Positions 877-64,000 of a stretch of 64,000 bases of DNA are shown piece after piece. The notes below the pieces were generated by a model. That model made no database searches and was not told the DNA's origin. It saw only the letters and a list, made by a program, of their open reading frames with translations. Location of the stretch: positions 3,038,001 through 3,102,000 of the forward strand of contig NZ_CP035495.1 in assembly GCF_004135345.1 (NCBI RefSeq), given 5' to 3'. A program made the translations under genes and the position numbers. Position 1 is the stretch's first letter; each line of letters begins with the position of its first letter. This stretch comes from Xylanimonas allomyrinae (GTDB lineage Bacteria > Actinomycetota > Actinomycetes > Actinomycetales > Cellulomonadaceae).

Positions 877-2021
877 CCCGCACGATCGTGGACGTCCACC
901 TGCTGCAGACCGTCCCCCCGAGCAACCTCAACCGTGACGACACCGGATCGCCCAAGACGGCGACCTACGGCGGCGTCCGGCGCGCCAGGGTGTCGTCCCA
1001 GGCATGGAAGCGCGCCACCCGCCAGGCGTTCCGTGACCACCTGGACGCCTCCGAGCTCGGGGTGCGGACCAAGCGCGTCGTCGAGCTTCTCGGCGAGAGG
1101 ATCGGCACGATCGACGCCGACCTCGCCGGTGACCAGGCCCTGGCCGCGGCACAGAGCGTGCTCACGGCGGCCGGCATCTCCGTGAAGGAGCCGCGCACCA
1201 AGAAGGGCGCCCCCGCCGAGTCGGGGTACCTGCTCTTCCTGTCGGAGCAGCAGATCGACGCCCTCGCCCACCTGGCGGTCGAGGCTGCCGTGGCCGGGCA
1301 GGCGCCCGCCAAGGCGGATGCGCAGGCGCTCGTCAAGGGCAAGAACTCGATCGACCTGGCCCTGTTCGGCCGTATGGTCGCCGACGTCACCGACCTCAAC
1401 GTGGACGCCTCGTGCCAGGTCGCGCACGCACTGTCGACCCACGCCGTCGAGACGGAGTACGACTACTTCACCGCCGTCGACGACCACAAGGCCGCCGACG
1501 CCGAGGAGGACCACGGCGCCGGGATGATCGGCACGGTCGAGTTCAACTCGGCCACGCTCTACCGCTACGCGACCGTCGACGTCGACCTCCTGGCCGCGAA
1601 CCTGGGGGACGTCACCGCCACCGAGCGTGCCGTGCGCGCGTTCCTCGAGGCGTTCGTGAAGTCGATGCCGACCGGCAAGCAGAACACCTTCGCCAACCGG
1701 ACGCTGCCCGACGCCGTCGTGATCAGCGTCCGCGAGGACCAGCCGGTCTCGTACGTGGGCGCCTTCGAAGAGGCGGTCACGGAGACGATCGACGGCGGCC
1801 GCGTGCGCCGATCGGCGCAGAAGCTCGCCGACTACGCGCGCGACGTCGCGGACGCCTACGGCGACGGCTCCGTCGTCAAGACGTGGGTCGTCGGCATCGG
1901 GTCGGCCGCGGAGCCGCTCGAGGCGCTCGGCGAGCGTGCCGGGTTGGACGCCACCATCGACGCGGCCGTCTCACTGGTGTCCGCGCGGCTGGCTCCCGCG
2001 AGCGACGCCGTGCCCGCATGA
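873..2021 (+). CDS. cas7e: Cas7e (Cse4/CasC) Cascade backbone protein
   Basis: 382 residues. The N-terminus reads V-D-V-H-L-L-Q-T-V-P-P-S-N-L-N-R-D-D, then R-R-A-R-V-S-S-Q-A-W-K-R, the recognisable opening of Cas7e, whose copies form the helical filament along the crRNA spacer. K-S-M-P-T-G-K-Q-N-T-F-A-N-R near residues 265-278 is the conserved thumb-side segment. The gene starts with GTG 873, overlapping the cse2 stop, and its own TGA overlaps the cas5e ATG at 2018, so translation is probably coupled. Length and motifs are normal and no frame defect is visible. Confidence 0.95.
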   Translation: MTRTIVDVHLLQTVPPSNLNRDDTGSPKTATYGGVRRARVSSQAWKRATRQAFRDHLDASELGVRTKRVVELLGERIGTIDADLAGDQALAAAQSVLTAAGISVKEPRTKKGAPAESGYLLFLSEQQIDALAHLAVEAAVAGQAPAKADAQALVKGKNSIDLALFGRMVADVTDLNVDASCQVAHALSTHAVETEYDYFTAVDDHKAADAEEDHGAGMIGTVEFNSATLYRYATVDVDLLAANLGDVTATERAVRAFLEAFVKSMPTGKQNTFANRTLPDAVVISVREDQPVSYVGAFEEAVTETIDGGRVRRSAQKLADYARDVADAYGDGSVVKTWVVGIGSAAEPLEALGERAGLDATIDAAVSLVSARLAPASDAVPA

Positions 2022-2743
2022 GCACGCTCGTGCTCCGGCTCGCCGGGCCGATGCAGGCGTGGGGTGGCTCGTCACGGTTCACGCGGCGAGCCACCGACCA
2101 CGCGCCGACGAAGAGCGGCGTCGTCGGACTGCTCGCTGCGGCGCAAGGGCTGCGACGGACAGACCCTCTGGAGGATCTGCTCTCGCTGCGGTTCGGCGTC
2201 CGCCTGGACCAGCCCGGACGGGTCGAACGGGACTTCCAGACGACCCGGAGCGCCGACGGCGGCAAGTCGTTCCCCCTGACCGAGCGTTTCTACCTCACCG
2301 ACGCCACCTTCGTCGCCGCGGTCGAAGGGGACGCGGCCCTCGTCGCAGCCCTCGACGAGGCCGTGCGCCGTCCGGCGTTCCCGCTGTACCTGGGGCGCCG
2401 GTCCTGCCCCCCGGCGGGTCCGCTCACGATGGGCGTCCGGGACGCCGACCTGTGGTCGACTCTGACCGACCTGGATGCCACGCCCTGGCAGGCGGCCACC
2501 TGGTGGCGCCGCAAGCAGGCGAACGACGTGCGCGTCGAGGTGCGCGTGGACGCCGAGGCCGTGCCTGCCGCGCTGCCCGACCGTGACCGCGTGACGCTGA
2601 ACCAGCAGGACTCACCGGTCAGCTTCGACCCGCGCATGCGCGAGTGGGGCTGGCGGTCCGTCGTCCAGACGTCCGTCCTCGTTCCGAACCCCGACGGCCA
2701 CCGTCACCGTCACGACCCGATGGCCTTGCTCGGAGGCGCCTGA
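2018..2743 (+). CDS. cas5e: Cas5e (CasD) Cascade 5'-handle-binding protein
   Basis: 241 residues starting M-S-T-L-V-L-R-L-A-G-P-M-Q-A-W-G, the signature N-terminus of Cas5e, a RAMP protein that caps the 5' handle of the crRNA and contacts Cse1. F-T-R-R-A-T-D-H-A-P-T-K-S-G-V-V-G-L follows and is typical of the family. The start was chosen at ATG 2018, overlapping the cas7e stop; an open frame extends further upstream but is only a shadow inside cas7e. The stop at 2741-2743 overlaps the cas6e ATG by one base. Confidence 0.95.
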   Translation: MSTLVLRLAGPMQAWGGSSRFTRRATDHAPTKSGVVGLLAAAQGLRRTDPLEDLLSLRFGVRLDQPGRVERDFQTTRSADGGKSFPLTERFYLTDATFVAAVEGDAALVAALDEAVRRPAFPLYLGRRSCPPAGPLTMGVRDADLWSTLTDLDATPWQAATWWRRKQANDVRVEVRVDAEAVPAALPDRDRVTLNQQDSPVSFDPRMREWGWRSVVQTSVLVPNPDGHRHRHDPMALLGGA

Positions 2744-4890: not shown

Positions 4891-6424
4891 GTGTTCCCCG
4901 CGCGAGCGGGGATGAGCCCGCGCCTGCCGAGGACCGAGCGCGAGCCGATGGGTGTTCCCCGCGCGAGCGGGGATGAGCCGGCGTCGCGTGCGGCGTCGTC
5001 CAGGCCGTGCCCGTGTTCCCCGCGCGAGCGGGGATGAGCCCCGCGAGTGGCCGCCCGAGATCGAGGGGTGGCTGTGTTCCCCGCGCGAGCGGGGATGAGC
5101 CCGAGTCGGGCGAGGGTTCGGGACGCGCGACCGGGTGTTCCCCGCGCGAGCGGGGATGAGCCCTACGTCCAGGCCCACCTCGGCCACGAGTCCATGTGTT
5201 CCCCGCGCGAGCGGGGATGAGCCCTGCTCGATGCTGATGACGGCCAGGTCCTCGTAGTGTTCCCCGCGCGAGCGGGGATGAGCCCCTGCGGCGACAGCCG
5301 GGGTGACCACGGTGCGCGTGTTCCCCGCGCGAGCGGGGATGAGCCCCGGAGCGCAGGTCCCTGAGGTACCGGGCGTGCGTGTTCCCCGCGCGAGCGGGGA
5401 TGAGCCCCCACACTTTGTGGGGGTGCAAGCCCAAGAGGGGTGTTCCCCGCGCGAGCGGGGATGAGCCGCTCGAACACCTGACGCGCGAGCATGGCTGCGA
5501 GTGTTCCCCGCGCGAGCGGGGATGAGCCCTGGCCGGCGGCGACGATCACGCCGGACGCCGTCGTGTTCCCCGCGCGAGCGGGGATGAGCCCAGGCCGAAG
5601 GGGACGGCGCTGACGGGCCACTGGTGTGTTCCCCGCGCGAGCGGGGATGAGCCGGTGATGAAGTCGGTCTCGCCGAAGCGCATGGGGTGTTCCCCGCGCG
5701 AGCGGGGATGAGCCGCCGACCGCGTCGGTGGCGGGCAGGAGGTCCCAGTGTTCCCCGCGCGAGCGGGGATGAGCCTGCTCTGACGCTCGCCGGGGCCTAC
5801 CAGTACCGGTGTTCCCCGCGCGAGCGGGGATGAGCCCTCTGTGGTCGACTGATTCGACCACGGGGAGGCGGTGTTCCCCGCGCGAGCGGGGATGAGCCGG
5901 CTCTGGCCGACAATGGCGCGACGCTCGACATGTGTTCCCCGCGCGAGCGGGGATGAGCCGGCAGCCATCCGCGCCGGACGCCGCGACGTGCTGTGTTCCC
6001 CGCGCGAGCGGGGATGAGCCCCAGATCGCCCTGCGCTTGGAGATCGTGTTCGGGTGTTCCCCGCGCGAGCGGGGATGAGCCTGTCGGCAACCCAGTCGGC
6101 ATCGTCGCCTCGAGGTGTTCCCCGCGCGAGCGGGGATGAGCCGGCGAGCGACGCCTTCCTTGCGTCACTCGGGATGTGTTCCCCGCGCGAGCGGGGATGA
6201 GCCTTGCTTCGTTGAGGCCGAGACGGACACATAGGCGTGTTCCCCGCGCGAGCGGGGATGAGCCCGTAACCGCCCGCAGCCGCCCGAACGCGAGCTCGTG
6301 TTCCCCGCGCGAGCGGGGATGAGCCTCAAAGGCGGGCACCCGCGTGATCCCCCTCGTAGTGTTCCCCGCGCGAGCGGGGATGAGCCGGAGTGACCCATGG
6401 CTGGGACCAACATCCCCTCGTGTT
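4891..6424 (+). CRISPR. Type I-E CRISPR array, block 1 (leader-proximal, 25 repeats)
   Basis: Twenty-five 28-nt repeats begin with GTGTTCCCCGCG and end with GGGGATGAGCC, with a hairpin CCCCGC-GCGA-GCGGGG; the first is at 4891 and the last full one at 6359-6386. Spacing is 61 nt, with spacers of 33-34 nt and one of 35 (5591-5625). I see no mutated repeats in this block, consistent with recent acquisition. The block ends in a 33-nt spacer followed by GTGTT, the first five bases of the next repeat, where an IS256 element interrupts it. The spacer at 5899-5931 recurs at 11901-11933. Confidence 0.98.
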
Positions 6425-57351: not shown

Positions 57352-57741
57352 ATGCACGAGCTTGCGCTGTGCCGGTCGATCGCACGGATCGCCGAGCAGC
57401 ACCGGGCGGGGCGTGGCGTCGAGCGCGTCGGGGTGCGGCTGGGTGCGCTGCGCCAGGCCGTGCCCGAGGCGCTCGAGCGGTGCTGGTCCGTGGTCACGCG
57501 GGGGACCGGGCTCGCCGGGAGCGCGCTCGTCTTCGAGATCGTGCCGCTCGTGGTGCGCTGCACCGCGTGCGGCAGCCGCACGCGACTGCGCGAGGTGTGG
57601 CTGCGCTGCGACGCGTGCGGGAGCGTCGACGTCGACGTCGTCGCCGGGGACGAGTTCGTGCTGACCTACCTCGATCTCGCCGACGACGCGGGGTGCGCCG
57701 TCGACGCAGGACGGGCCGCCCGCCCGGGCGGCGGACACTAA
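57352..57741 (+). CDS. hypA: HypA nickel-insertion protein (copy 1)
   Basis: 129 residues beginning M-H-E-L-A-L-C-R-S-I-A-R-I, where M-H-E supplies the N-terminal nickel site. The zinc site is C-T-A-C-G-S…C-D-A-C-G-S. HypA works with HypB to insert nickel in hydrogenase. Placed between hypF and hypB with 7- and 9-bp gaps, so part of one operon. A second, clearly different hypA lies at 60242. Confidence 0.93.
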   Translation: MHELALCRSIARIAEQHRAGRGVERVGVRLGALRQAVPEALERCWSVVTRGTGLAGSALVFEIVPLVVRCTACGSRTRLREVWLRCDACGSVDVDVVAGDEFVLTYLDLADDAGCAVDAGRAARPGGGH

Positions 57742-58880: not shown

Positions 58881-60200
58881 TCAGCGTCCTTCCGGGGTGT
58901 CGGGGGCACCGGTGAGCGTGAGCCGCATCGCGCCGAGCGGGGCCGCGGTGCACGGCAGGCACGGGTCGGCCTCGCGGACGGCGCGTTCGAGCGGGCCGAC
59001 CGTGCCGTCCTGCGTGCTGTCCTTCGTGCCGTCGCCCTGCGTGCCGTCGCCCTGCGCCGCGGCGTGCAGCAGGTCGGCCAGCCACGGCTCGTTCTGCGCC
59101 GTGGGGGTGAGGATCGTCGCGGCGTGGAGCACGTCGTCGTCGCCCGTGACGTAGCGGTGCACGAGCAGGCCGCGGGGGCCGTCCACCCAGCCGACGCCGG
59201 ACGCCCCGGCGGGCAGCCCCGTGAGCGTGACCGCGACCGGCTCGGGCGGGGCGCACACGGCGCCGTCCGACAGCACCTCCGCGACGGCCTCGACGGCCGC
59301 GACGGCCATGATCGCGCGCGCGGGCGCCGCGGCGCGCGGACCGCGCGCCCACGAGTCCTGAAGGTCCGCGGCCTGCGGGGTGCGGAGCGGGCCGACGCCG
59401 AGCTGGGCGACCGGCCCGACCCGGTACCGACCGGCGTCGGGCCCGAGCATGCGCAGGTAGGGGCGCGGCGCCGCGGCCCCCGGATGCTGCTCGGCGAGCA
59501 CGGCGGTGAGACGTGCGGCCGGCTGCGCGTGGTGGAGCACCGTCCCGTCCGCGGCCACGGCGCGCAGGTGGGTGCCGAGCAGGTCGGGCCGCCCGTCCGC
59601 GTCGACCAGGGCGACGTCCGCCCCGGTGAAGGCGAGCGGGGCGGCGGCCGGGTCCGGGGCGTCGGCGAGGGCGCCGAGCGCGATCCGCCGGGCCGCCGCG
59701 ACGGCGTCGGGCACCGCGGCGAGCAGCGCCTCGCGGACCGGTGCGGGCACCGTCACGCGCACCCCTCCGGGCACGGCGGTCGCCGGGAAGTGCGACGGCA
59801 TGCCCGCCGCGGCGAGCGCGTCGGCGGCGAACCGCGCGAGCGCCGCGACGTCCGCCGGGTCACGGCCCAGGGTCGCGGCGCGCGCCGCGTGCGCCTGCAC
59901 GGCCGACGCGTGGTGCAGCAGGCGCCGGACGGCGGTCGCCTGCGCCGGCAGCGGTGCGGCACCGCCCAGCGCCTCGAGCGCGCGCACGCCGGCAAGGTGG
60001 TGTGCCGCGGGGCACAGCCCGCACAGCCGCTCCACGAGCGCGGGGATGCGCGCGACGGGGCGCCCCAGGAGCACCGGCTCGACACGCGGCAGGTCGCTCA
60101 GCGCGAGGCGGGCGCGCGCCACGCTCCCGTCCGCCGCCCGGTCGACGACGACGCGCACCTCGGACGGGTCGAGGAGCTCGTCGAGGACGAGACGCGTCAT
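58881..60200 (-). CDS. Divergent [NiFe]-hydrogenase large-subunit-like protein
   Basis: 439 residues. L1-type motif R-L-C-G-L-C-P-A-A-H-H near residue 58 and a C-terminal D-P-C-L-P-C-T-A-A-P supply all four active-site cysteines, but the His expected after C-x-x-C, where the C-terminal peptide is cut, is absent. A Gly/Asp/Thr-rich stretch with repeated G-D-G-T-K/Q units occurs shortly before the second motif. The gene is paired with hypC and lacks an adjacent small subunit. It may be an assembly scaffold of the HupK/HoxV kind or the large subunit of an unusual hydrogenase. It is much shorter than the canonical large subunit at 62308. Confidence 0.8.
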   Translation of the reverse strand: MTRLVLDELLDPSEVRVVVDRAADGSVARARLALSDLPRVEPVLLGRPVARIPALVERLCGLCPAAHHLAGVRALEALGGAAPLPAQATAVRRLLHHASAVQAHAARAATLGRDPADVAALARFAADALAAAGMPSHFPATAVPGGVRVTVPAPVREALLAAVPDAVAAARRIALGALADAPDPAAAPLAFTGADVALVDADGRPDLLGTHLRAVAADGTVLHHAQPAARLTAVLAEQHPGAAAPRPYLRMLGPDAGRYRVGPVAQLGVGPLRTPQAADLQDSWARGPRAAAPARAIMAVAAVEAVAEVLSDGAVCAPPEPVAVTLTGLPAGASGVGWVDGPRGLLVHRYVTGDDDVLHAATILTPTAQNEPWLADLLHAAAQGDGTQGDGTKDSTQDGTVGPLERAVREADPCLPCTAAPLGAMRLTLTGAPDTPEGR

Positions 60201-60241: not shown

Positions 60242-60598
60242 ATGCATGAGCTGACCCTGCTGCGCTCGGTCGTCGCCGCCGTCGAGCGGGTCGCGGCCGA
60301 GCGCGGCGCGACCGGTGTCGAGGAGGTCGGCCTGCGCGTGGGCACGCTCAGCGGGGCGGTGCCCGAGGCCCTGGCCGGGGCGTGGCCGATCGCCACGGCA
60401 GGCACGGTGCTGGCCGGGTCGCGGCTGGAGCTCGACGTCGTCCAGGCGGCGGTGCGGTGCGGGAGCTGCGCGCGCGACGTCCCCGTCGACGTGCTCTACG
60501 CGCTCGTGTGCCCGGAGTGCGGGACGCCGTCGGGGGAGCTGGTCGCGGGCCGCGAGCTCGCCGTCGCGTACGCCGACCTCGCCGACGCCCCGCGCTGA
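60242..60598 (+). CDS. hypA: HypA-like nickel-insertion protein (copy 2)
   Basis: 118 residues from ATG 60242: M-H-E-L-T-L-L-R-S-V-V-A-A-V, zinc site C-G-S-C-A…C-P-E-C-G. It differs widely from copy 1, so it may serve a different target, for instance the adjacent large-subunit-like protein. It is divergent from that gene (41-bp gap) and convergent with the endopeptidase gene (11 bp). Confidence 0.9.
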   Translation: MHELTLLRSVVAAVERVAAERGATGVEEVGLRVGTLSGAVPEALAGAWPIATAGTVLAGSRLELDVVQAAVRCGSCARDVPVDVLYALVCPECGTPSGELVAGRELAVAYADLADAPR

Positions 60599-60609: not shown

Positions 60610-61095
60610 TCACGGATGCCCCGCGTCGTCGTCCTCGGCGAGCCAGCGCTCGACGACGCCGCGTGCCGTCGCGGTCGCCACGTCGAGGACGCCGGCGACG
60701 ACGTCGGACAGGCCGAGCCGCAGGTCGACGACCTCGGGCACGACGCCCACGACCTCCACCTGCCGTGGCTCGCGGCCCAGCAGGCGCGCGGCGGCCAGGA
60801 CGTCGAGCAGACCCACCTGGTGCGGGGACAGCTTGGTGGCGAGCAGACGCGGGACCTGGTCGCCCGTCAGGTGCACCACGGTGCCGGGGACGGGGCCCGC
60901 GACCGCGTCCAGGACGAGCAGCCGCTCGGCGTCCTGCACCACGGGCACGAGCTCCATGCCGCCGGTGCCGCCGTCCACGACCTCCACGCGAGGGTCGCCG
61001 GCGCAGGACCGGGACAGGCGCTCGGCGAGCGCCAGCCCGGTCCCGTCGTCGGCCATGATCGGGTTGCCGATCCCGAGCACCGTGACCGCGGTCAT
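60610..61095 (-). CDS. Hydrogenase maturation endopeptidase (HyaD/HupD family)
   Basis: 161 residues: V-L-G-I-G-N-P-I-M-A-D-D-G-T-G with the metal-binding acidic residue, L-V-L-D-A-V, and L-S-P-H-Q-V-G-L-L-D-V-L-A-A-A with His. It removes the C-terminal peptide of the large subunit after nickel insertion, here most likely after the His in D-P-C-M-S-C-A-V-H of the protein encoded upstream. The start lies seven bases past the cytochrome b stop. Confidence 0.92.
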   Translation of the reverse strand: MTAVTVLGIGNPIMADDGTGLALAERLSRSCAGDPRVEVVDGGTGGMELVPVVQDAERLLVLDAVAGPVPGTVVHLTGDQVPRLLATKLSPHQVGLLDVLAAARLLGREPRQVEVVGVVPEVVDLRLGLSDVVAGVLDVATATARGVVERWLAEDDDAGHP

Positions 61096-61102
61096 GCGCC
61101 CG

Positions 61103-62311
61103 TCACTCGATCGGAGGGCTGTCGACGGGGTGCGCGCCGCGGCGCACCCACACGCCGCCGTTGAGCATCGACGAGACGCCGCCGTGCCGTTCGAGGGAGT
61201 CGGCGCGGATCGCGAGGTAGATGTGCATCACGACGAACGCCCACAGGCCGAACATGATCGCGGCGTGGAGGAACCGGATCGTCGGGACGCCCAGCCAGGT
61301 GGTCGGCGCGGCGACCAGCGCCCAGAACGGCGACTGCACGTGGTAGAGCGCGTACAGCGTGAACCCGGTGGCCATCTGGAAGGCGCACGCCGCGTACAGG
61401 GCGGTGTAGGTGAGCTGCTGCAGCGGGTTGTGCGACAGGTACAGGGGCCCGTCGTTCTTGATGAGCGCGTAGTGCGCGACCGCGCCGCCGAGGTGACGCA
61501 CGTCGGACTTCGACCACAACGGCCAGAACGACTGCCAGCGCATGTTCCGGTAGCGCGAGGTGAACGTGAGCACGAAGCGCGTGACGCCGAGCACGAGCCA
61601 CGCGAACGCCGCGACGAAGTGGACGAGGCGGACCCAGCCCATGAGGAACCCGGACGCGGCGCCGTCGACCGGGGTGGGCCCGAAGAAGGGGTCCATGATG
61701 AAGTACCCGGTGCAGCTCAGCACGAAGATCAGCGCGACGTTGGCCCAGTGCTGCAGGCGCAGCGCCGCCGGCCACAGGGCGACCCGGGTCCAGCCGCTCT
61801 CGGCGGCGCCCGCGTCCGACGTGCCGTGGGACGCGTACGGCGTCACCGCGACGAACCCCTGCAACCGGAACTCGCCGACGACGTCGTCGGCGCTCACGGG
61901 CGCGGCGGCGATCGCCAGAGGGCGCTCGCCGCGCACGAACGCACGGTCGGCGTTCTTCTTGACCAGGGAGCGCTGCTGGCGCGAGCAGCGCGTGGCCGCG
62001 AGCACGTCGGGGATGGCCCCGCGCATGACGACGACGTCGCGGGTCGCGCCGCCCGGCTGGGCGAGGTCGCGGACGCGCACGAGCGAGTAGCGGCGGGTGC
62101 GCGTCGCGGGGTCGACGTCGCCCGGGTCGACGACGGGGACCGGGATCTCGTGGTGGTCGGCGACGAGCGCGGCGGCCGCGGCACCCACCACCGGGTCGGT
62201 GGCGTCCGCCGGGCCGGCGGCGGCGAGCGCCAGCAGGCGGCCGTGGCTCAGGCCGCCCGAGCTGTGGATCTCGCCGACGTGCAGGCCGGCCGGCGGGGCC
62301 GGGGCGCTCAC
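61103..62311 (-). CDS. Hydrogenase cytochrome b subunit with an extra N-terminal P-type-ATPase-like domain
   Basis: 402 residues from GTG 62311, overlapping the large-subunit stop (GTGA). Residues ~180-385 are a HyaC-type di-haem cytochrome b: four membrane helices with candidate haem histidines in R-L-Q-H-W-A-N-V, R-L-V-H-F-V-A-A, R-F-L-H-A-A-I and V-V-M-H-I-Y-L-A-I-R. It passes electrons from the hydrogenase to quinone. Residues ~20-157 are not part of HyaC. They read like a P-type-ATPase nucleotide-binding domain (D-P-V-V-G-A-A-A-A-A-L; D-P-A-T-R-T-R-R-Y-S; M-R-G-A-I-P-D-V-L; R-G-E-R-P-L-A-I-A; F-R-L-Q-G-F-V-A-V-T-P) with no phosphorylation or transport domain. Confidence 0.88.
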   Translation of the reverse strand: MSAPAPPAGLHVGEIHSSGGLSHGRLLALAAAGPADATDPVVGAAAAALVADHHEIPVPVVDPGDVDPATRTRRYSLVRVRDLAQPGGATRDVVVMRGAIPDVLAATRCSRQQRSLVKKNADRAFVRGERPLAIAAAPVSADDVVGEFRLQGFVAVTPYASHGTSDAGAAESGWTRVALWPAALRLQHWANVALIFVLSCTGYFIMDPFFGPTPVDGAASGFLMGWVRLVHFVAAFAWLVLGVTRFVLTFTSRYRNMRWQSFWPLWSKSDVRHLGGAVAHYALIKNDGPLYLSHNPLQQLTYTALYAACAFQMATGFTLYALYHVQSPFWALVAAPTTWLGVPTIRFLHAAIMFGLWAFVVMHIYLAIRADSLERHGGVSSMLNGGVWVRRGAHPVDSPPIE

Positions 62312-64000
62312 GACGTCACGACCTGGAGCTCGGCGCCCTCCACGTCCAGGACGTGCACGGCGCACGACATGCACGGGTCGAAGGAGTGGATGGTGCGCAG
62401 CGGCTCGAGGGGCTGCGCGGCGTCGTGCAGCGGGTGGGAGCCGGCGCCGGCCAGCGACTCCTCGTAGGGGCCCTGCTGGCCGTCGGCGTCGCGCCCGCCC
62501 GCGAGCCACGTCGTGGGCACCACGGCCTGGTAGCGCGCGACCTTGCCGTCCTCGACGGTCACCCAGTGGCTGAGGTTGCCGCGCGCCACCTCGACGAACG
62601 AGAACCCCTCGCCCTTGTCGGGCCACGTCGACGGGTCCCAGCGGGAGTTGTCGAAGACGTCGATGTCGCCCTTCTTGAGGTTGTCGACCAGCTGCGGGAA
62701 CGTCACCTCGGCCAGGGCCTCGGCGGAGATCATCGCCTCGACGGCGCGGGCCAGGGTGCGGCCCGCGGTCGAGTTGAGCTGGTCGACGGTGATGCCGAGC
62801 TTGCCGGCGGCGTCGTCGACCAGCTCGCAGGTGCGCTGGTGGCCCTGCGCGTAGGCGAGCAGGATGCGTGCGACAGGACCCACCTGGACGGGCTTGCCGT
62901 CGTAGCGCGGGGCCTTGCACCACGTGTACTTGTCGGCGTCGGCCAGCCACTCGAACGGGGGCTTGGGGCCCGTGTATTGCGGGGTCGTCTCGCCCTGGGC
63001 GGGTGCGAGGCCGGCGTCGTCGCCGTCCTGGTAGGTGTACCACGCCGATGCGATGTACTCGGCGATCTTCGTCGGGTCGAACGGGTGGACGGTGGACAGG
63101 TCGCCGTCGAGCAGCACGCCGGGCTTGACCTCGGTGTGGGCCGACGTCGTGCGCGACGCGCCCGGGTCGCCGCCGAACGTCGCGCCCGCCAGCCCGACCG
63201 CGAGGTAGTTCGGCTGGGCCGCGCCGATGTCGAAGTAGTCCTTGTACACGCCCATGATCGCGAGCGCGTCGGGCAGGTAGCACGACGCGACGAAGTCGCG
63301 CGTCTCGGCCACCCAGTCGGCGATCTGGTCGAGCTGGACCTGGTTGATGGACTCGGACCGGTCGAGGTCGATCGTGCACGCCATCCCGCCCACGAGGAAG
63401 TTCGGGTGCGGGTTCTTGCCGCCGAACACGGTGCCGATGCGGATCATCGACCGCTGGAACTCCAGCGCGTCCAGGTAGTGGGCGACCGCCATGAGGTTGG
63501 CCTCGGCCGGCAGCCGGTAGTCGGGGTGGTCCCAGTACCCGCCGGTGAAGATCGAGAGCTGCCCGGAGTCGAGGATCTGCTGCACGGTGTCGCGCACCGC
63601 CGTCATGCGCTCGATCGTGTTGCCCTTCCAGGTCGAGCCGATGGAGCGCGCGAACTCGACCGCCTTGGCGGGGTCCGCCGTCGCGGCCGACGGCACGTTG
63701 ACCCAGTCCAGGGCGTGCAGGTGGTAGAAGTGGATGACGTGGTCCTGGACCTCCTGCGAGGCCAGCACGATGTCGCGGATCAGGCGGGCCTGCCGCGGCG
63801 GGTTGGCGCCGATCGCGTTCTCCACGGCCACCACCGAGGCGATGGCGTGGACCGAGGTGCACACGCCGCAGATGCGCTGCACGAACGCCCAGGCGTCACG
63901 CGGGTCGCGGTCCTGGACGATCGTCTCGATGCCGCGGAACTGGGTGGTCTCGCTCCACGCCTTGCGGATCGCACCGCCCTCGGTCTCGAGCTCGATGCGC
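62308..64000 (-). CDS. [NiFe]-hydrogenase large subunit, N-terminus beyond the window
   Basis: At least 563 residues are inside the window; the start is past base 64000. L1 motif R-I-C-G-V-C-T-S-V-H (about 63870) and L2 F-D-P-C-M-S-C-A-V-H bind the NiFe centre. A 14-residue C-terminal peptide (V-L-D-V…V-V-T-S) follows the His and should be removed during maturation. Length and motifs match membrane-bound group 1 uptake hydrogenases, in line with the cytochrome b gene it overlaps. The small subunit is presumably just outside the window. Confidence 0.95.
   Translation of the reverse strand, partial: RIELETEGGAIRKAWSETTQFRGIETIVQDRDPRDAWAFVQRICGVCTSVHAIASVVAVENAIGANPPRQARLIRDIVLASQEVQDHVIHFYHLHALDWVNVPSAATADPAKAVEFARSIGSTWKGNTIERMTAVRDTVQQILDSGQLSIFTGGYWDHPDYRLPAEANLMAVAHYLDALEFQRSMIRIGTVFGGKNPHPNFLVGGMACTIDLDRSESINQVQLDQIADWVAETRDFVASCYLPDALAIMGVYKDYFDIGAAQPNYLAVGLAGATFGGDPGASRTTSAHTEVKPGVLLDGDLSTVHPFDPTKIAEYIASAWYTYQDGDDAGLAPAQGETTPQYTGPKPPFEWLADADKYTWCKAPRYDGKPVQVGPVARILLAYAQGHQRTCELVDDAAGKLGITVDQLNSTAGRTLARAVEAMISAEALAEVTFPQLVDNLKKGDIDVFDNSRWDPSTWPDKGEGFSFVEVARGNLSHWVTVEDGKVARYQAVVPTTWLAGGRDADGQQGPYEESLAGAGSHPLHDAAQPLEPLRTIHSFDPCMSCAVHVLDVEGAELQVVTS

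Follow-up and report, generated by a model that had tools for sequence, protein, structure and literature searches.

A predicted P-type ATPase N-domain fused to the cytochrome b subunit of an actinobacterial [NiFe] hydrogenase

The fused hyaC gene and its operon

The 64,000-nucleotide stretch of Xylanimonas allomyrinae DNA analysed here (contig NZ_CP035495.1, positions 3,038,001 to 3,102,000; hereafter the window) holds part of a [NiFe]-hydrogenase operon, in which the HyaC-type cytochrome b subunit carries an N-terminal extension that, judging from structure models, almost certainly has the fold of the nucleotide-binding domain (N-domain) of P-type ATPases. The gene, its parts and its two neighbours are, in window coordinates:

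61103..62311, minus strand: HyaC-type [NiFe]-hydrogenase cytochrome b with N-terminal extension, 402 aa (open reading frame and translation; TIGR02125; PF01292)
61832..62290, minus strand: P-type ATPase N-domain-like domain, residues ~8-160 (AlphaFold2 (AF2) model, Foldseek and VIA matches, HHalign)
61796..61831, minus strand: flexible linker, residues ~161-172 (low pLDDT in AF2 models)
61157..61774, minus strand: cytochrome b domain, residues 180-385 (Pfam/NCBIfam, full-length AF2 model, Foldseek, invariant histidines)
62308..64000, minus strand: hydrogenase large subunit (HyaB), start beyond the window end (PF00374, E 2.1e-203)
60610..61095, minus strand: HyaD-type maturation protease, directly downstream of the fused hyaC (PF01750, E 6.8e-25; TIGR00072 above cut-off)

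The fused hyaC starts with GTG and has a four-base overlap with the TGA of the large-subunit gene, which in full is a 580-aa open reading frame (locus L108). Small and large subunit genes both lie upstream in this genome, giving the order hyaA-hyaB-hyaC(fused)-hyaD in the sequence; the 424-aa small subunit, past the window end, has a twin-arginine motif and, towards its C-terminus, a hydrophobic stretch, and the protease scores 125.2 against TIGR00140, below its cut-off of 151.8 (NCBIfam). Residues 180-385 match PF01292 (Pfam, E 2.1e-23) and TIGR02125 (NCBIfam, 126.5 bits, exceeding the cut-off of 121.5). As in Escherichia coli Hyd-1 HyaC (4gd3; TIGR02125), this part has the cytochrome b fold, matches above the TIGR02125 cut-off and is encoded between the large subunit and the maturation protease. 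Unlike the HyaC models TIGR02125 (212 positions) and NF007551 (235 positions), which are matched from positions 3 and 14, the protein has a separate domain preceding the cytochrome; since cytochrome b models are matched from profile position 2, 3 or 14, about 165 or more of its residues are extra.

Long helices are predicted in the cytochrome part at residues 182-206, 217-251, 296-324 and 342-373, and histidines 188, 231, 294, 349, 363 and 376, with putative roles in haem b binding and quinone reduction, are invariant in 14 rows; the full-length model matches the Hyd-1 cytochrome b (4gd3_A) with a Foldseek E of 6.7e-5. Local model confidence (pLDDT) falls below 50 over residues 161-177 when the domain is modelled by itself, and over 163-171 when the full-length protein is. 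Counts of lysine plus arginine in the loops of 14 sequences (0-1 in loop 1, 6-9 in loop 2, 0 in loop 3) indicate that the N-terminus, and hence the fused domain, is probably on the cytoplasmic side, opposite the exported active site.

The N-terminal domain and its recurrence

The AF2 domain model is built of the strands (E) and helices (H) E10-17, H23-30, H40-52, E75-84, E90-98, H100-106, H111-126, E130-139 and E149-158, a predicted topology of the N-domain kind, with an antiparallel sheet and flanking helices. It superposes on 2voy_J over 116 residues at 2.0 Å and on 5lbk_B over 115 residues at 2.3 Å, and KdpB is also among its structural matches. In profile comparison, where P-type sequences were grouped as P2/P3-like or P1B by our own reading of motif and length, HHalign aligns the family with 30 actinobacterial P2/P3-like N-domains (probability 96, E 4.9e-9, score 60.5) over 111 columns, colinear along both domains, while 100 column shuffles reach at most 19.7 and the reversed alignment 19.8; when the same 30 ATPases are left uncut, the match falls again on the N-domain. 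With five KdpB N-domain sequences the profile score was 16.6, which is no match, and the TIGR01647 cut-off was passed in none of 60 genomes, leaving no P3A proton-pump sequences for comparison.

A first-pass annotation, made from the letters alone, had proposed that residues ~20-157 resemble, segment by segment, the N-domain of H+/metal P-type ATPases. The segments are indeed present, most of them conserved in 15 aligned rows, although the domain is better bounded at ~8-160 (61832-62290), and of the supposed closing motif G-F/L-x-x-x-x-P the family keeps G-F/L-V, the final proline occurring, among these rows, only in the window protein and locus L002. Its remark that no phosphorylation or transport domain accompanies the N-domain also holds: by reading, the DKTGT phosphorylation motif is absent from all 402 residues, and residues 180-385 are cytochrome b.

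With the P2/P3 N-domains of Pma1 (9ugb) and AHA2 (5ksd) the fused domain agrees in its predicted fold and in how its elements follow one another: first two helices with DPxx.A, then PATxxRR in place of PFDxxRK, a strand ending in RGxxxxVL in place of KGAPExVL, then a helix, GxRPLAVA in place of GxRVLAVA, and a final strand with GFV. Unlike in these pumps, it is not inserted in a phosphorylation (P) domain, lacks DKTGT, the pump transport helices and the stacking phenylalanine, and has arginine for lysine at two places. It has the compact size of the copper ATPase N-domains (CopA, HMA8), superposes tightly on them and shares their start, 'LALAA....S..P...A', but lacks the SEHP histidine, with D39-P40 where P1B pumps have HP, and its second half aligns better with P2/P3-like than with P1B N-domains. 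A separate observation concerns the motif DVVVMRG...SR......NA at 61925-62047 (minus strand, residues ~89-129), which resembles the P-domain end of copper ATPases, although in the predicted fold it lies within an N-domain.

The same arrangement is found in 14 other genomes, in one of which the gene is divided between two contigs. At the level of the host's own family (150 genomes, threshold 1e-3) there were six matches including its own: two further full-length fused copies within the genus, L002 (76% identity) and L003 (51%), and three weak, partial ones (L004, a MerR-like protein, L005 and L006). At order level (396 genomes, threshold 1e-10) 14 matches were obtained including its own; the extension is present in 10 of the other 13, one of them split (L018/L022), and three, all from one genus, match over the cytochrome part alone, with a short tail of ~45 residues before it, by eye, in L020. 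The family holding these 10 carriers has the extension in 10 of its 18 genomes, and a short-peptide-pattern scan of 84,980 species gave two loci, in a Micrococcales and a Propionibacteriaceae metagenome-assembled genome. A phylum sample (396 genomes, threshold 1e-5) returned 37 matches including its own; in 41 of the 44 matches listed other than its own the alignment begins no earlier than residue 175, and in the other three at 141, 160 and 170. They are thus confined essentially to the cytochrome part, and many may be other b-type cytochromes rather than HyaC. Family-profile scans within Actinomycetota, in which the best 11 (class) or best 8 (phylum) candidates per genome were scored where there were many, found no other fused or free-standing copy in 296 class genomes, and only the gene itself in the 396 phylum genomes at 1e-5; plasmids gave no match.

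All 14 homologous loci, counting the L022 piece along with 13 full-length copies, have the large-subunit C-terminus directly upstream; the two genes overlap by four bases in 13 loci and are two bases apart in one, an arrangement that speaks against an assembly error; the worry that a separate gene had been joined here artificially is thus not borne out. NG86 estimates of dN/dS range from 0.17 to 0.55 for the domain and from 0.05 to 0.49 for the cytochrome part (8 pairs chosen from 91, dS being high in some), so that, as far as sequences can tell, the domain is constrained, if more loosely than the cytochrome. Over 91 pairs, which are not independent of one another, the distances in the domain and those in the cytochrome part show a correlation of 0.85, consistent with a single old fusion.

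Several neighbouring genes deserve mention in their own right. The gene at 58881-60200 (minus strand) encodes 439 aa resembling a hydrogenase large subunit, with LCGLC and DPCLPC cysteine motifs and a PF00374 match limited to residues 40-105 (E 7.1e-12); the product may be a HupK/HoxV-like maturation scaffold. In L112 a similar open reading frame accompanies the hydrogenase genes (E 1.4e-10 for PF00374), and a pattern search alone points to DPCxxC frames close to those of L109, L111 and L008. Two HypA-type nickel chaperone genes stand near the operon at 57352-57741 and ~60242-60598, both on the plus strand (PF01155, E 1.6e-25 and 2.8e-23), and in L108 a 302-aa open reading frame just upstream of the small subunit (5448-6356, minus strand) reads, by eye, like an exported carbonic anhydrase.

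The putative ligand pocket

In the 15 aligned rows, one of which is a contig-truncated piece, D39, A44, R74, R97 and G98 are invariant (15/15 each) and P40 is kept in 14, while G128, R130 and L132 are conserved in all 14 rows that reach them. The ATP-docking positions of pumps were taken to correspond to the motifs PFDxxRK, KGA, GxRVLA and DPTE, and the pocket positions of the fused domain were mapped through the profile alignment. In Na,K-ATPase the docking positions named in PMC5354106 include Phe475, Lys480, Lys501 and Glu446, along with Ser477, Gln482, Glu505 and Phe548, and Arg544 appears there in the title of a reference. The two pocket lysines (of PFDxxRK and KGA) are replaced by Arg74 and Arg97, arginine in 15 of 15 rows each, so that charge is kept and identity changed; the equivalent of Arg544 is Arg130 (14/14), and the place of the P1B HP-motif histidine is held by aspartate in every row. 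The mapping thus leaves the cations of the phosphate side in place as arginines, with the aromatic of the adenine side missing.

Several observations tell against a ligand-binding regulatory role. Where the adenine-stacking phenylalanine (Phe475/487) would stand, alanine occurs in 13 rows, proline in 2 and an aromatic in none; this column crosses an alignment gap, and the alternative, residue 66, is phenylalanine in two of 15 rows. The equivalent of Glu446/442 is aspartate in 12 of 15 rows and Val42 in the window protein. Nor is binding by isolated pump N-domains strong: PMC5089723 gives dissociation constants of 0.7-25 mM for three of them and reports none seen for those of HMA6 and HMA8. With these pocket changes, nucleotide binding may have been kept in altered form, switched to another ligand, or lost. 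The first-pass annotation is supported in its structural claim, and its proposal of an ATP- or nucleotide-sensing module stays hypothetical, given the alanine or proline at the stacking place and the altered pocket residues.

Regulatory module, scaffold or pump fragment

How could such a domain serve a hydrogenase? It can be proposed that HyaC of an exported, membrane-bound [NiFe] uptake hydrogenase acquired, at its cytoplasmic N-terminus, an N-domain that came without the P and A domains. Tethered by a short flexible linker, this domain would lie in the cytoplasm next to the haem b/quinone end of the electron path and act as a regulatory module. Having no catalytic aspartate domain and an arginine-rich pocket where pumps hold the phosphates of ATP, it would bind an anion from the cytoplasm, with a nucleotide the likeliest ligand and an affinity in the millimolar range, and binding would shift the domain relative to the cytochrome or a partner, turning electron flow from H2 to menaquinone up or down. 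That the fused domain has a regulatory role in the cytoplasm, with a modified pocket for an anion or nucleotide, is suggested by its sequence and comes close to an even chance. A narrower version, an energy-charge sensor reading ATP/ADP (or ppGpp) through R74, R97 and R130 at cellular millimolar levels and gating transfer from haem b to menaquinone, appears unlikely. The full-length AF2 model, with a pTM of 0.51, does not fix the interdomain arrangement, which also counts against the regulatory reading.

The N-domain fold could equally be a mere scaffold that binds no nucleotide; it would then help in assembly, oligomerisation or docking, for instance to the tail that the small subunit has in the cytoplasm, to a maturation factor or to some respiratory partner. 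This is a real possibility, if still on the doubtful side. The missing stacking phenylalanine in all rows and the missing pocket glutamate of the window protein agree with it, as does the faster divergence of the domain (mean p-distance 0.49, vs 0.34 for the cytochrome), and six small subunits (L108-L112, L008) show, by eye, a recurring PL.A(F/L)G tail after the C-terminal hydrophobic stretch. The invariance of all three basic phosphate-holding positions argues the other way.

A degraded piece of a P1B (copper) ATPase is an improbable origin for the extension, residues ~89-129 then stemming from the P-domain end, yet an N-domain reading leaves the match of that segment unexplained. At E ≤ 10 the family profile matches nine PDB sequences, every one of them a P1B-type ATPase (best E 4.3e-4), with eight of the matches running through profile positions 99-137 or part thereof, with the P-domain-end pattern '(D)vvlMR..L..V....SR......N..wA'. 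Against 34 full P1B ATPases HHalign prefers the P-domain-end segment (score 49.5), and against P1B N-domains alone it picks the N-domain start (score 36.7; 100 shuffles at most 20.3); the same segment is weakly matched in P1B ATPases of the host's own and related genomes (L053, L070, L071, L073). Because whole N-domains, that of CopA among them, can be superposed on the predicted fold, the match is taken as a local resemblance.

Barely credible is the view that the resemblance is accidental and the alpha/beta domain unrelated, or that an error of assembly or a frameshift produced it: single-sequence searches of the extension (Pfam, NCBIfam, PDB phmmer) gave no credible match, the best PDB phmmer row being a PAC2-like protein (E 0.011) and Pfam returning over 15 family members three weak families in one member each, but the fold match, the profile controls and the recurrence of this arrangement, downstream of the large-subunit gene, in 14 more genomes already contradict it. 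Single-sequence searches miss the relationship, which takes the family profile or the fold to show. Non-pump proteins were also matched and are treated as chance: L004 (MerR-like regulator, 1429-2298, plus strand, E 9.4e-5) is a short local resemblance sharing the stretch DVDPVTRYRRY....VR with residues ~65-82, no MerR protein being among the fold-search matches listed, and the frames of L107 (4.9e-5) and L069 (5.0e-4) show no DKTGT by eye.

P-type ATPase N-domains are not known outside pumps, and no described allosteric domain is known on this cytochrome subunit; among the papers listed in literature searches, none describes, by title or abstract start, a fusion of an N-domain with it. An N-domain that has left its pump and is retained by the hydrogenase subunit facing the quinone offers a natural experiment for learning what the fold can do when no phosphorylation takes place. 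It also leads to a specific, testable hypothesis of how bacterial H2 oxidation might be controlled from the cytoplasm. Should the domain be an energy-charge sensor, H2 oxidation would be throttled directly by the nucleotide status of the cytoplasm, and a respiratory hydrogenase would be under allosteric control by a borrowed ion-pump domain. Hydrogen use in a group of actinobacteria may, if the models are a guide, be tuned by an intracellular signal.
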